Source: Cytophagales bacterium | GTDB lineage: Bacteria; Bacteroidota; Bacteroidia; Cytophagales; Thermoflexibacteraceae | Direction of reading: 5' to 3' | Assembly (NCBI GenBank): GCA_013299115.1 | Contig: JAAFKA010000001.1 | Location: forward strand, 62,001-126,000 | DNA length: 64,000 bases | Part shown: piece after piece, positions 17,690 to 60,134 of the stretch | Layout of the letters: each line of letters opens with the position of its first letter | Position numbering within the stretch: position 1 is the first letter of the stretch | The notes under the pieces: generated by a model | The model's input: only the letters and a program-made list of their open reading frames with translations | The model's database searches: none | Told to the model about the DNA's origin: nothing | Translations under genes and position numbers: made by a program

Positions 17690-17984
17690 GACTTTAGTCC
17701 AATGCTGTTAAGCTAAGAAGTTCCAAAACAACCTCGAAGAGCAATTCCATTGTGGGTTAAACAAGAATAGCCCTGCGTGCAACGCAGGGTAAAAGATAAG
17801 AGAGTATCCCAACCTCGATAGAGGTTGAACATTCTTGCACCTACCCTGTGTCATTGTTCAACCTCTTCGAGGTTGGATTGAAAAACTGCTTTGTTTCTCC
17901 TACGTTTCACGTAGGGCTATTGACGTTCAACCTCTTCGAGGTTGTAAATATAGTTTCTTAGCTTAATAGCATTGGACTCAAGTC
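17690..17984. mobile_element. ~275-bp palindromic mobile element, copy 1
   Basis: Core 17700-17974 with 20-bp terminal inverted repeats (CAATGCTGTTAAGCTAAGAA and its near-complement ending GCATTG), flanked by 10-bp sequences GACTTTAGTC (17690-17699) and GACTCAAGTC (17975-17984), 8/10 alike. The interior holds repeated palindromes AACCTCTTCGAGGTT and inner inverted repeats at 17768-17789 and 17899-17919. It carries no open reading frame of note. Same ends as the copies at 38143-38433 and 58296-58582; the interior matches the latter, with the segment between the inner repeats reversed. It sits between convergent genes. Confidence 0.8.
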
Positions 17985-38142: not shown

Positions 38143-38433
38143 GGCTTTAGTCCAATGCTGTTAAGCTAAGAAATTGTTTTTAAGTGGGGCTGCCTAAGTG
38201 CCGTTAGGCACGAAATATTTATAGCAAGTCATATTCCTACACTTCAAAGTGCCGTAGGCACGATATATTTTGCCCGCAGTGGAACTGCTACGACACTTAG
38301 GGGAGTAGAGTCGCACTTTTTCTATAAATATTGCAGTCCTACGGACTTAAAAAGAAATTTAATTGATTGATAACCAATTAATTAAAACTTTACTTGTTTT
38401 ACTTTCTTAGCTTAATAGCATTGGGCTTTAGTC
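38143..38433. mobile_element. ~271-bp palindromic mobile element, copy 2
   Basis: Core 38153-38423 with 20-bp terminal inverted repeats (CAATGCTGTTAAGCTAAGAA and its complement, 19/20), flanked by an identical 10-bp direct repeat GGCTTTAGTC (38143-38152 and 38424-38433). The interior is unrelated to copies 1 and 3 and contains other palindromes, GTGCCGTTAGGCAC (38199-38212), GTGCCGTAGGCAC (38249-38261) and AGTCCTACGGACT. No coding capacity. Confidence 0.8.
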
Positions 38434-38435
38434 TG

Positions 38436-38577
38436 TGTGTTTTGGTTTTTGAGAAATCAAAGTACTTGGGTTTTGAGAAACCCTAAGCACTTTGATTTAG
38501 TACTTGGGGTTTTGAGAAACCCTAAGCACTTTGGTTTAGTACTTGGGGTTTTGAGAAGCCCCAAGTACTTCGTTTAA
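38436..38577. repeat. Tandem GAGAAACC hairpin units
   Basis: Three consecutive ~38-39-bp units starting at 38462, 38500 and 38539, each GTACTTGGGGTTTTGAGAAA then CCCTAAGCACTTTG or CCCCAAGTACTTCG, able to fold as hairpins. They fill the DNA just after mobile element copy 2 and before panC. Confidence 0.75.
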
Positions 38578-48561: not shown

Positions 48562-48788
48562 TTTTGTCCCGTAGGGACTGAATATTGGTAGAAAAAAGGT
48601 ATCCCATCATCTATTATGTCTCGTAGGGACTATACAAGACGAGGTAACTTTATTTTGCTACCAATATTCAGTCCCTATGGGACAAAGAAAAAACAGATTG
48701 CATTTTGCTACCAATATTCAGTCCCTATGGGACAAAGAAAAAACAGATTGCATTTTGCTACCAATATTCAGTCCCTACGGGACAAAGA
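48562..48788. repeat. 50-bp tandem repeat with an inverted partner
   Basis: Three copies of a 50-bp unit start at 48661, 48711 and 48761 (CCAATATTCAGTCCCTATGG, GACAAAGAAAAAACAG, ATTGCATTTTGCTA). Each includes the palindrome GTCCCTAYGGGAC. An inverted copy of the ~30-bp core lies at 48562-48592, so the block can fold as a large hairpin. A degenerate GTCTCGTAGGGAC stands between. Units 1 and 2 are identical, unit 3 differs by one base, so the duplication is recent. Confidence 0.88.
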
Positions 48789-48870
48789 ATTTAATAGCTA
48801 ATGCGTTGCAACTAAATTAATTATCAAATGATTAAACTCCTAATTCCTAACTGTTTAACTACTAACTAAA

Positions 48871-58185: not shown

Positions 58186-58645
58186 CGGACTTTAGTCCGT
58201 TTCCGAAGTATAGACGATAAACGGACTAAAGTCTGTTTCTGAAGTATAGACGACAAACGGACTTTAGTCCGTTTCCGAAGTATAGATGACAAACGGACTA
58301 AAGTCCAATGCTATTAAGCTAAGAAAACTTGCAACCTCGAGGAGCAATTCCATTGTGGGTTAAACAATAATAGCCCTACATGAAACGTAGGGGAATATTT
58401 GCAAATTTGCATCCAACCTCGAAGAGGTTGAACAATGGCACAGGGTAAGTAAGGTTGTTCAACCTCTTCGAGGTTGTGGCGTACTCTCTTATCTTTTCCC
58501 TACGTTGCACGTAGGGCTATTGCTGTTCAACCTCTTCGAGGTTGTAAAAAAACTCTTAGCTTAATAGCATTGGACTAAAGTCTGTTTCTGAAGTATAGAC
58601 GACAAACGGACTAAAGTCCGTTCTACAGGACTAAAGTCCGTTTTA
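58186..58645. repeat. 36-bp tandem repeat array interrupted by a mobile element
   Basis: Units start at 58186, 58222, 58258 and 58294, each exactly 36 bp, CGGACTnnAGTCnGTTTCnG, AAGTATAGAnGAnAAA. Unit 4 is split: its first 12 bp (58294-58305) are followed by the 267-bp element and a repeated GACTAAAGTC, then its remaining 24 bp (58583-58606). Unit 5 begins at 58607. Without the 277 bp, unit 4 equals unit 2 exactly. Units 1/3 and 2/4 alternate in the centre (TTT or AAA). Confidence 0.92.
58296..58582. mobile_element. ~267-bp palindromic mobile element, copy 3, with 10-bp target duplication
   Basis: Core 58306-58572 with 20-bp terminal inverted repeats CAATGCTATTAAGCTAAGAA and its complement, flanked by identical 10-bp direct repeats GACTAAAGTC (58296-58305, 58573-58582). 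The interior matches copy 1, but the segment between inner inverted repeats (58371-58392 and 58498-58519) is reversed. No open reading frame, so it must be mobilised in trans, if mobile at all now. Confidence 0.9.
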
Positions 58646-58662
58646 CAAAAAAACACAACAAA

Positions 58663-59205
58663 ATGAAAAAACTCTTCATTATTATTTGCTTTAACTTGTT
58701 GTTTTTCAATGCTTTAGCACAAACCGAATGGAAAGTGGCAACAGGCTCTGCGGTTACATTTGTGATTAAAAACGCAGGACTAAAAGTAGATGGAAAACTC
58801 GAAGGTTTGCAGACCACTATCAAATTTGATAGCCAAAACTTAGCCACTTCGAGCATAGAGGCAAGTGTAGAAACGCAAACTATCAATACAGACAATAAAA
58901 GCAGAGATGGACATTTGCGAAAAGAGGAATATTTTGATGTTGCCAAATTTCCAAAAATAACCCTCAAAAGCATAAGTTTTTCGAAAGATGGCAACAGTGG
59001 AAACAACTACAAAGGTAAATTCAAATTGACCATAAAAGGTGTAACAAAAGAGATAGAAATTCCTTTTTCATACGTTGAAAATGGCAATGCTGCAACCTTT
59101 AAAGGCAGTTTTACTATCAACCGTTTAGACCATAAAGTGGGTGGAAATAGCTGGGTTTTGGCTGATAATGTGATAATTAGCTTGAATATTTTAGCAATAA
59201 AATAA
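58663..59205 (+). CDS. YceI family periplasmic protein
   Basis: A 180-residue protein with signal peptide (~1-18, ending ALAQ). The mature part is the YceI lipocalin-like barrel: TEWKVATGSAVTFVIKN at the start, GLQTTIKFDSQNLATSSIEASV, RDGHLRKEEYFDVAKFPKI (the family signature with H-L-x-x-x-x-F/Y-x-D-x-x-x-F-P), KGVTKEIEIPF. YceI proteins bind isoprenoid or amide lipids and are induced by stress or base. It starts the run of small same-strand genes. Confidence 0.94.
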   Translation: MKKLFIIICFNLLFFNALAQTEWKVATGSAVTFVIKNAGLKVDGKLEGLQTTIKFDSQNLATSSIEASVETQTINTDNKSRDGHLRKEEYFDVAKFPKITLKSISFSKDGNSGNNYKGKFKLTIKGVTKEIEIPFSYVENGNAATFKGSFTINRLDHKVGGNSWVLADNVIISLNILAIK

Positions 59206-59213
59206 TTTTTTTA

Positions 59214-59317
59214 TACGTTGGCAATGGTGCTTTTCGCACCTTGACAAGCGTATAAAAAACAGTTTACGCATATAAAATTACGCTTGTCAAGGTGCGAAAA
59301 GCACCATTGCCAACGTA
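59214..59317. repeat. Double ACGTTGGCAATGG repeat, perfect 39-bp inverted repeat
   Basis: Left arm 59214-59252 (TACGTTGGCAATGGTGC, TTTTC, GCACCTTGACAAGCGTA) and right arm 59279-59317 are perfect reverse complements over 39 bp, spaced by 26 bp. Each arm is itself an imperfect hairpin of the same family as 50874-50940. It stands between the YceI and LysE-like genes. Confidence 0.92.
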
Positions 59318-59344: not shown

Positions 59345-59977
59345 ATGATATTTTTGCTTTTTTTTATTTCTCTAGTTAGTGCTATTGGTTCTTTGCAACC
59401 GGGTTTAGTGAATTTGTCGGTTGTGCAGGCAGTTATGCAGCGAGGTTTAATGGCAGGTTTTTGTGTGGCTTTGGGTGGCAGTTTGCCCGAAATGCTATAT
59501 GCTTTTTTGGCAATACAAATTGTAGAAGTTGGCGAAAAATTTACTTTTATTACATCTTTTTTGCCTTCTCTCAAATGGTTTAGTGTGGTAATTTTAGTAG
59601 CAATAAGTGTCTATTTTTTCCTAAAAAAGGCATCAGAACATAAGTACTTATCGGGTGGCTTTGAGCCACCCGATAAGCACAATTACAAATCTTTTTTGAA
59701 AGGTTTCTTGATGGGATTAAGCAATTTTCAACTTGTGTTTTTCTGGTCTTTTGTGTTTTTGTATTGCAAAGAAATAAATAGCATAAATATGCAAAAGCCT
59801 GAAAATCAATTTGTTTTTATTGTTGCAACAGGTTTAGGTGCTTTAATATTCTTGTGTTTTTTGGCAATGCTAACCGCAAAATATCAACACAAATTTCAAA
59901 CAGTTTTTAACAAATCGGCAGACAAAATTATGGGGTTTTTATGTCTGTTTTTGGTAATAATAACTCTTTTTAACTAA
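59345..59977 (+). CDS. LysE-family transporter with an in-frame palindrome
   Basis: A 210-residue membrane protein with about six hydrophobic helices, typical of LysE/RhtB exporters: an opening hydrophobic helix ending SLQPGLVNLSVVQAV (family-like P-G-P/x-N), GGSLPEMLYAFL, then the loop and two long C-terminal helices. In the loop after helix 3 the DNA has a perfect 14-bp hairpin (59647-59677) of the same GGGTGGCT core as the intergenic repeat at 60650-60690; it is read in frame as YLSGGFEPPDK. Its last ~17 bp, including the stop, are duplicated downstream. Substrate unknown. Confidence 0.8.
   Translation: MIFLLFFISLVSAIGSLQPGLVNLSVVQAVMQRGLMAGFCVALGGSLPEMLYAFLAIQIVEVGEKFTFITSFLPSLKWFSVVILVAISVYFFLKKASEHKYLSGGFEPPDKHNYKSFLKGFLMGLSNFQLVFFWSFVFLYCKEINSINMQKPENQFVFIVATGLGALIFLCFLAMLTAKYQHKFQTVFNKSADKIMGFLCLFLVIITLFN
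59647..59677. repeat. Palindromic repeat inside the LysE-like gene
   Basis: CTTATCGGGTGGCT, TTG, AGCCACCCGATAAG: perfect 14-bp arms, extended by GT/AC after one mismatch. The core GGGTGGCT-nnn-AGCCACCC is shared with 60650-60690, there with loop CAA (the complementary orientation). Confidence 0.9.
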
Positions 59978-60134
59978 GGTGATTTCGGTTTCTCAACACC
60001 GAAACTCTATTGCGGGTTTTGGTTTTGAGAAACTGAAACCACAGAGGTAGTAACTCTTTTTAACTAAGGTGGTTTCGGTTTTTCAAAAACGAAACTACAT
60101 TACAGGTTTTGGTTTTGAGAAACCAAAACCACAT
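59961..60134. repeat. 90-bp tandem duplication with GGTTTTGAGAAACC hairpins
   Basis: TAACTCTTTTTAACTAAGGT at 59961 recurs at 60051 with a period of 90 bp. Unit 1 includes the last 17 bases of the LysE-like gene and its TAA stop; unit 2 carries a copy of them beyond the gene. Each unit holds two hairpins of the GGTTTCTCA/TTTTGAGAAACC type. Confidence 0.85.

Follow-up and report, generated by a model that had tools for sequence, protein, structure and literature searches.

The 267-bp element at positions 58306-58572 of the window (the whole stretch of 64,000 nucleotides that was analysed) is very probably a hairpin-shaped, non-autonomous MITE whose ends are of the IS4-family type and which depends for its movement on an IS4-family transposase acting in trans, with a preference for palindromic targets. 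It has the traits by which a MITE is recognised: it is short and lacks a transposase gene, its end repeats recur in many copies, and it is flanked by a target-site duplication. The first-pass annotation of this DNA had already read it as a MITE with a target duplication, and that reading is borne out by the copies found in the genome, by direct flanks in excess of expectation, by asymmetric duplications, and by relatives in the IS4 family with 9-11-bp duplications.

Structure and insertion site of the element

The element ends in perfect terminal inverted repeats, CAATGCTATTAAGCTAAGA. These had been given as 20 bp long; the repeat is present and perfect, but it stops short of base 20, where the left end has A and the right end G, and its length is thus 19 bp. 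The element's coordinates and length, the copy of GACTAAAGTC on each side of it and the 36-bp tandem array that surrounds them are as described in the first-pass annotation (Table 1). When the element and one GACTAAAGTC are removed in silico, the rebuilt unit 4 of the array equals unit 2 at 36 of 36 bases, just as had been claimed; in the rebuilt array, units 1 and 3 each agree with unit 2 at 31/36 bases, and the last unit at 21/36. The units before the insertion carry the palindrome GGACTNNAGTC(C/T), and the remainder of the array contains two more palindromes, at 58608-58619 and 58628-58639. The element had been described as being without a gene, and no ORF of at least 60 aa overlaps it.

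Table 1. Coordinates of the MITE copies in the window and of the features that surround them.
Feature	Position	Strand	Remark
MITE copy 1, interior family 1	17700..17974	.	275 bp
Target duplication GGCTTTAGTC of copy 2, left	38143..38152	.	
MITE copy 2, interior family 2	38153..38423	.	271 bp
Target duplication GGCTTTAGTC of copy 2, right	38424..38433	.	
36-bp array, units 1-3 and start of unit 4	58186..58305	.	insertion host
Target duplication GACTAAAGTC, left copy	58296..58305	.	10 bp
MITE copy 3, interior family 1	58306..58572	.	267 bp
Left 19-bp terminal inverted repeat CAATGCTATTAAGCTAAGA	58306..58324	+	end-pattern match
Interior hairpin arms CAACCTCGAAGAGGTTGAACAA / TTGTTCAACCTCTTCGAGGTTG	58414..58476	.	
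Right 19-bp terminal inverted repeat, exact match of left	58554..58572	-	end-pattern match
Target duplication GACTAAAGTC, right copy	58573..58582	.	10 bp
Array remainder: rest of unit 4 and divergent last unit	58573..58642	.	

The ORF at 58663-59205, which we take to encode a YceI protein, is followed just beyond its end by a perfect 39-bp inverted repeat with arms 26 nt apart (59214-59317). Using this YceI-like neighbour gene as a guide, we sought an orthologous empty site in the sister species (genome G001); no clear orthologous position was found there, the matches being 33-34% identical. Elsewhere in the window, at 48652-48789, a 50-bp unit is repeated in tandem 2.8 times with 98% matches.

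Copies in the window and in the host genome

With up to three mismatches allowed, the window contains six matches to the end pattern, where shuffled sequence has 0.06 on average, and the six matches are the ends of the three two-ended elements of Table 1. Copy 1 is flanked by GACTTTAGTC and GACTCAAGTC, which are identical at 8/10 positions. Directly after copy 2 lies a 39-bp tandem array (38442-38570, 2.8 copies) with GGTTTTGAGAAACC motifs, and a motif similar to GGTTTTGAGAAACC occurs in a 90-bp repeat at 59961-60133.

A genome-wide search with the terminal repeat, which the first-pass annotation had suggested, uncovers many copies. The assembly to which the window belongs (G000; 5.5 Mb, 74 contigs) has the end, with up to three mismatches, at 60 places on each of the two strands, against one on each for a reversed control pattern. 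The copies examined come from 100 of these 120 end places, supplemented with element-similarity matches. Pairing of ends at up to four mismatches per end gave 39 pairs, and the removal of two shorter than 100 bp left 37 elements of 100-700 bp; further ends that were seen without a partner enter only the target count for 105 ends given below. By their interiors, 28 of the 37 belong to one family (including those at 17700 and 58306), eight to a second (including that at 38153), and one stands alone. No predicted ORF runs across any of the 37, and in 7/37 one or both neighbours were not callable. In four relatives of the element in G000 (C37:23974-24490, C34:68526-68861, C11:50840-51372 and C10:70598-71062), a stretch of the interior, about 66-70 bp long, matches several times in a row, and at C67:184616-185138 (L082) two elements with unlike interior families stand in tandem with one 10-bp palindrome in common, the palindrome centres reading TT, AA and TT.

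A single long hairpin is the predicted fold of the element at 58306-58572 (-159.9 kcal/mol; z -17.3 relative to shuffles), and the element at 38153 is also predicted to fold well (z -8.6, DNA parameters). One could imagine that such elements persist chiefly because their long hairpins serve the host, at transcript ends or in mRNA stability, and that their mobility is old or over. This explanation is compatible with a MITE origin, and the predicted folding of the whole element as one hairpin, the lack of any predicted ORF spanning the 37 elements and the failure to find an intact transposase on the contigs searched all speak for it. We nevertheless consider it improbable, as three observations point to transposition: look-alikes of the element lie at other sites (97% at C2:55905, 90% at C44:5140 and 92% at C12:1320), there are exact duplications, and unlike interior families stand behind the same ends.

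Transposase remnants and full-length relatives

For MITEs moved in trans, one looks for an autonomous partner with the same ends in the same genome. The search for a full-length transposase element that had been proposed was successful in part: relatives in the IS4 family with the same end type do exist elsewhere, but an intact transposase bounded by these ends was not found on the contigs of G000 that were searched. None of the nine PF01609 loci in G000 has a pair of ends, and an IS4-type transposase query from another genome, G594, has no match at E <=0.001 in G000 or G001. What G000 does contain are two contig ends, C39 and C33, at which the terminal repeat is followed by a transposase fragment, RKWQGYFLEAIDGTSLVLPQT, and two further contig ends, C27 and C66, which have another end in common. 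The flanks of C66 and C33 match (GACTAAAGTC), whereas those of C39 (GGCTTTAGTC) and C27 (GAGTTAAGTT) do not. Together, these look like parts of a repeated larger element whose interior is absent from the contigs searched. About 100-125 residues are missing from the start of the IS4 transposase in the remnant at C33/C39, so that this transposase-bearing copy is probably not autonomous. Outside the terminal repeat (up to about 42 nt), little is common to the MITE interiors and the transposase-bearing ends. Fragments of 29 aa and 22 aa gave no NCBIfam or Pfam match, and the 29-aa fragment had no match in the PDB or in plasmids. A decayed transposase at C17:7547-8026 (L062), presumably of Tn5 type, was considered as a partner and rejected, having a single end nearby and not lying in a paired element.

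Queried against 395 genomes, the 29-aa fragment matched 22 at E <=0.5, nearly all weakly. Six of the 26 loci were inspected: two, both of G594, are insertion sequences, and four (L188, L189, L192 and L206) are not; the other 20 include the host genome's own contig ends. The insertion sequence of G594 is 1440 bp long and present in two identical copies with ends CAATGTCATTAAGTTAAGG, one of them inside a 10-bp duplication, CGTGTTATCC, and the other with flanks that match at 8/10 positions. It has a frame of 435 aa, with matches to NF033592 (IS4 family, E 1.7e-53) and to PF01609. This transposase in turn found matches in 38/390 genomes of the order, and PF13006, the IS4 N-terminal domain, had none in 291 genomes of the order. 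Among 22 loci inspected for ends (the two of G594 and L213-L232), 14 have both; the other eight reach a contig edge, are without a long frame in the part that was searched, or show no clear pair. The remaining ten of the 30 loci from the G594 query, L233-L242, were scanned for end-like 19-mers and yielded no pair of good ends, the best single end matching at 17/19 positions (L241).

In twelve of the 14 two-ended loci the flanks form a duplication of 9-11 bp, at least 90% identical and of the length that was chosen as fitting best; in L210 the flanks agree at 8/10 positions, and L215 has no duplication. In the 12 duplicated cores, 30/59 opposite positions are complementary, compared with 15.7 +- 3.4 at random sites of the same loci, and 0/5000 random sets were as high. 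Since three of the 12 have only zero or one complementary position of five (CGTGTTATCC with 1/5, GGTACTACTA and GGAGAGGGTT with 0/5 each), there is a preference for palindromes but no requirement. The duplication of L217, whose frame is the nearest to the host remnant (67% identity to RKWQGYFLEAIDGTSLVLPQT over 21 aa), is GCCTTTAGGC, a palindrome of the same kind as the target in the host. L219 and L224 are of equal length with similar ends, and lie at different sites in two genomes.

The IS4 family is described as having duplications of about 10 bp and a YREK motif (PMC2266710), and its IS4 subgroup as having ends of the form -AATR--------WTW with 10-13-bp duplications (PMC2266710, Table 1). 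The MITE end contains AATR but, with C at position 14, not WTW (positions 14-16), for which reason we file it at the level of the IS4 family only. In the left ends of the relatives, AATR is present in 13/14 (not in L228) and WTW in 12/14 (not in L217 or L231). The YREK motif, as Y(2)R(3)E(6)K, is found in 13/14, the exception being L231, whose longest frame is only 276 aa. A simple motif search for D(60-110)D(100-150)E found both spacings in 6/14; in these six the first spacing is 74-81 and the second 106-109 in four, and 92, short of 100, in L219 and L224. On these sequence features, the full-length relatives fit the IS4 family, with the DDE spacing partly checked.

These relatives leave very little room for the view that a transposase of another family, which by chance uses a similar end, moves the elements. 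It would be in keeping with that view that an intact autonomous partner was not found on the contigs searched; however, the C33/C39 ends abut an IS4-type transposase fragment, 14 IS4-family loci in other genomes have the same end type, and a duplication of 10 bp fits what is tabulated for the IS4 family (PMC2266710, Table 1).

Distribution of the end

In the genome collection, the exact end is seldom met outside the genus: it occurs in 22 stretches, 14 of which are from the sister MAG. The other eight, each a short element, a single end or a fragment at a contig edge, come from records named Bacteroidetes, uncultured Bacteroidales, Cytophagales, Marivirga, Fulvivirga (two), Planctomycetota and Sulfurovum. 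A slightly looser pattern matched 6 of 395 genomes of the class, including the host's own. In G497 a 209-bp element lies inside a CCCnnnGGG hairpin (L185), and G485 has one intergenic end. End-like matches inside long frames, at L110 and L113 (both G034), L111 (G002), L181 (G559), L182 (G123) and L183 (G335), look like chance and were set aside. The element has no blastn match in plasmids and phages, the exact end is absent from the viral contigs, and our literature search turned up no MITE family with these ends in print.

Target duplication and palindromic target

The left and right flanks are alike across elements, so that the proper control for direct repeats is the random re-pairing of flanks. 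Exact 10-bp direct flanks are seen in 10/37 pairs, exact reverse complements in 6/37 and neither in 21/37, and no direct flank exceeds 10 bp. Random re-pairing gives a mean of 3.8 exact direct pairs and reaches at least 10 in 13/20000 shuffles; a smaller set of 2000 shuffles has a mean of 3.9 and a maximum of 10. The expectation that the copies would be flanked by a 10-bp direct repeat thus holds in that exact repeats exceed the shuffled number, but not for every copy, 27/37 being without an exact one. The outcome that the first-pass annotation had set against its own reading, namely the same inverted flank in all copies and no empty sites, was not seen. The sister species was added through 14 stretches of Cytophagales MAG RE-15aug16-245, which is probably genome G001, contig numbers and positions being in agreement; 18 pairs were listed there at up to five mismatches, and after one at a contig start was dropped, 17 remained. 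When the two genomes are pooled, direct pairs number 13/54 compared with 6.4 after shuffling (12/5000 shuffles reach 13), and reverse-complement pairs 7/54 compared with 6.1 (2051/5000), which is chance level. The flanks of the latter copies therefore show no sign of direct duplication, and the idea of a special conversion of direct into inverted flanks (quasi-palindrome correction), which the 6/37 had raised, was dropped for the same reason.

Two of the direct duplications, GGCTTTAGTC twice at 38153 and GTCTTCGACC twice at C39:18512, are asymmetric and hence cannot be parts of an inverted terminal repeat. In the outer arms beyond the core, 3.63/8 positions are complementary within elements, compared with 2.93 after shuffling and 2.12 at random sites (0/2000 shuffles were as high), as is expected if both flanks derive from one longer palindrome.

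The target preference is the core GRCTNNAGYC, itself a high-copy repeat: GRCTWWAGYC has 361 sites in G000, compared with 22 when the pattern is reversed. Of 105 ends counted at up to two mismatches, 59 stand next to GRCTNNAGYC and 75 next to a 10-mer in which 3/5 or more pairs are complementary, where random 10-mers average 1.2/5. Twenty-two of the first 50 palindrome sites were checked in sequence, and 14 adjoin an end (at up to four mismatches) while eight do not, five of the eight being in the array of the window. None of the 100 listed ends lies next to any of the other 28 sites, some of which may adjoin the remaining 20 of the 120. The palindromic repeats are thus a larger set, of which the element has filled only a part. 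It is barely credible, then, that the 10 bp are the outer part of a longer terminal inverted repeat of about 30 bp, with the palindrome travelling with the element: although the flanks are mostly alike, as the 59/105 ends show, and 6/37 pairs are exact reverse complements, asymmetric flanks repeat directly, direct pairs exceed the shuffled pairing where reverse-complement pairs do not, element-free palindromes exist (8 of 22 checked sites) and the 9-11-bp duplications of the full-length relatives are quite different, so that we rejected an extended terminal repeat on the asymmetric direct flanks and the shuffled pairing.

With a MITE and a true target duplication as the preferred reading, the following mechanism can be proposed. 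A transposase of the IS4-family group would cut the element out and paste it, in trans, into target DNA. Acting as a two-fold symmetric complex, it would prefer a target with dyad symmetry, and a 10-bp staggered cut around the dyad would make the duplicated stretch a palindrome. The palindrome core, present in hundreds of dispersed repeats, would provide landing sites between genes, and many flank pairs may later have diverged through mutation or exchange between copies.

Comparison with known systems

Palindromic repeats are also mobilised in the REP/REPIN system, in which a GTAG-tagged palindrome is moved by RAYT, a Y1 transposase; unlike it, the present family has DDE-type ends and duplications. 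The MITE resembles the IS4 family in its ends, which are of the CAATGC..TTAAG.TAAG type (those of E. coli IS4 match at 12/19 and 13/19 bases), and in a duplication of about one helix turn, whereas the IS4-family relatives carry a YREK and DDE transposase and the MITE has none. The IS4 copy of E. coli K-12 differs from the MITE in that its 12-bp duplication, ATCTTGGTTCTG, is not a palindrome.

The closest parallels for the target come from two other members of the IS4 family. ISRm22 of Sinorhizobium meliloti is described as having copies inside palindromic repeats, inserted at the symmetry axis, and imperfect duplications in some copies (PMC1525189), the imperfect pairs being attributed in that source to recombination; it differs from the MITE in being an autonomous IS with a 6-bp duplication, in another host group and another repeat (PMC1525189). 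The duplicated target of IS10/Tn10, NGCTNAGCN, is likewise a short palindrome, with a CT..AG core, but the duplication is 9 bp long and the ends are different (PMC4574204); the part of that account cited here mentions no tie to dispersed repeats. Among the Bacteroidota, BrickBuilt and other MITEs of Porphyromonas gingivalis are similar in having like ends, unlike interiors and internal tandem units (PMC4596501). Their ends, however, are nearest to ISPg1/ISPg9, their duplications are short and of varying length, and palindromes are not mentioned in the main text of that source (PMC4596501).

Implications

That insertion sequences, among them ISRm22 of the IS4 family, target palindromic repeats is already known; what is new is another, well-documented member. 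One type of hairpin module, GTCCCnnnGGGAC, found inside C2:95226 of the host genome, is also where a similar element has landed in the distant G497. A tentative and rather doubtful extension is that the IS4-family group forms a palindrome-seeking lineage across the Bacteroidota, in step with the hairpin repeats of its hosts, its MITEs both landing in such repeats and carrying hairpin modules of their own. If this were true, each insertion would bring new landing pads, and MITEs and hairpin repeats would feed each other.

The window offers a clean comparison of empty and filled site within one locus, together with hundreds of ready-made target sites in one genome and a set of full-length relatives with duplicated targets biased to palindromes. 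The recognition of symmetric or hairpin-forming targets by DDE transposases thereby becomes directly testable, and the palindromic target repeats offer a reason for the location of these MITEs between genes.
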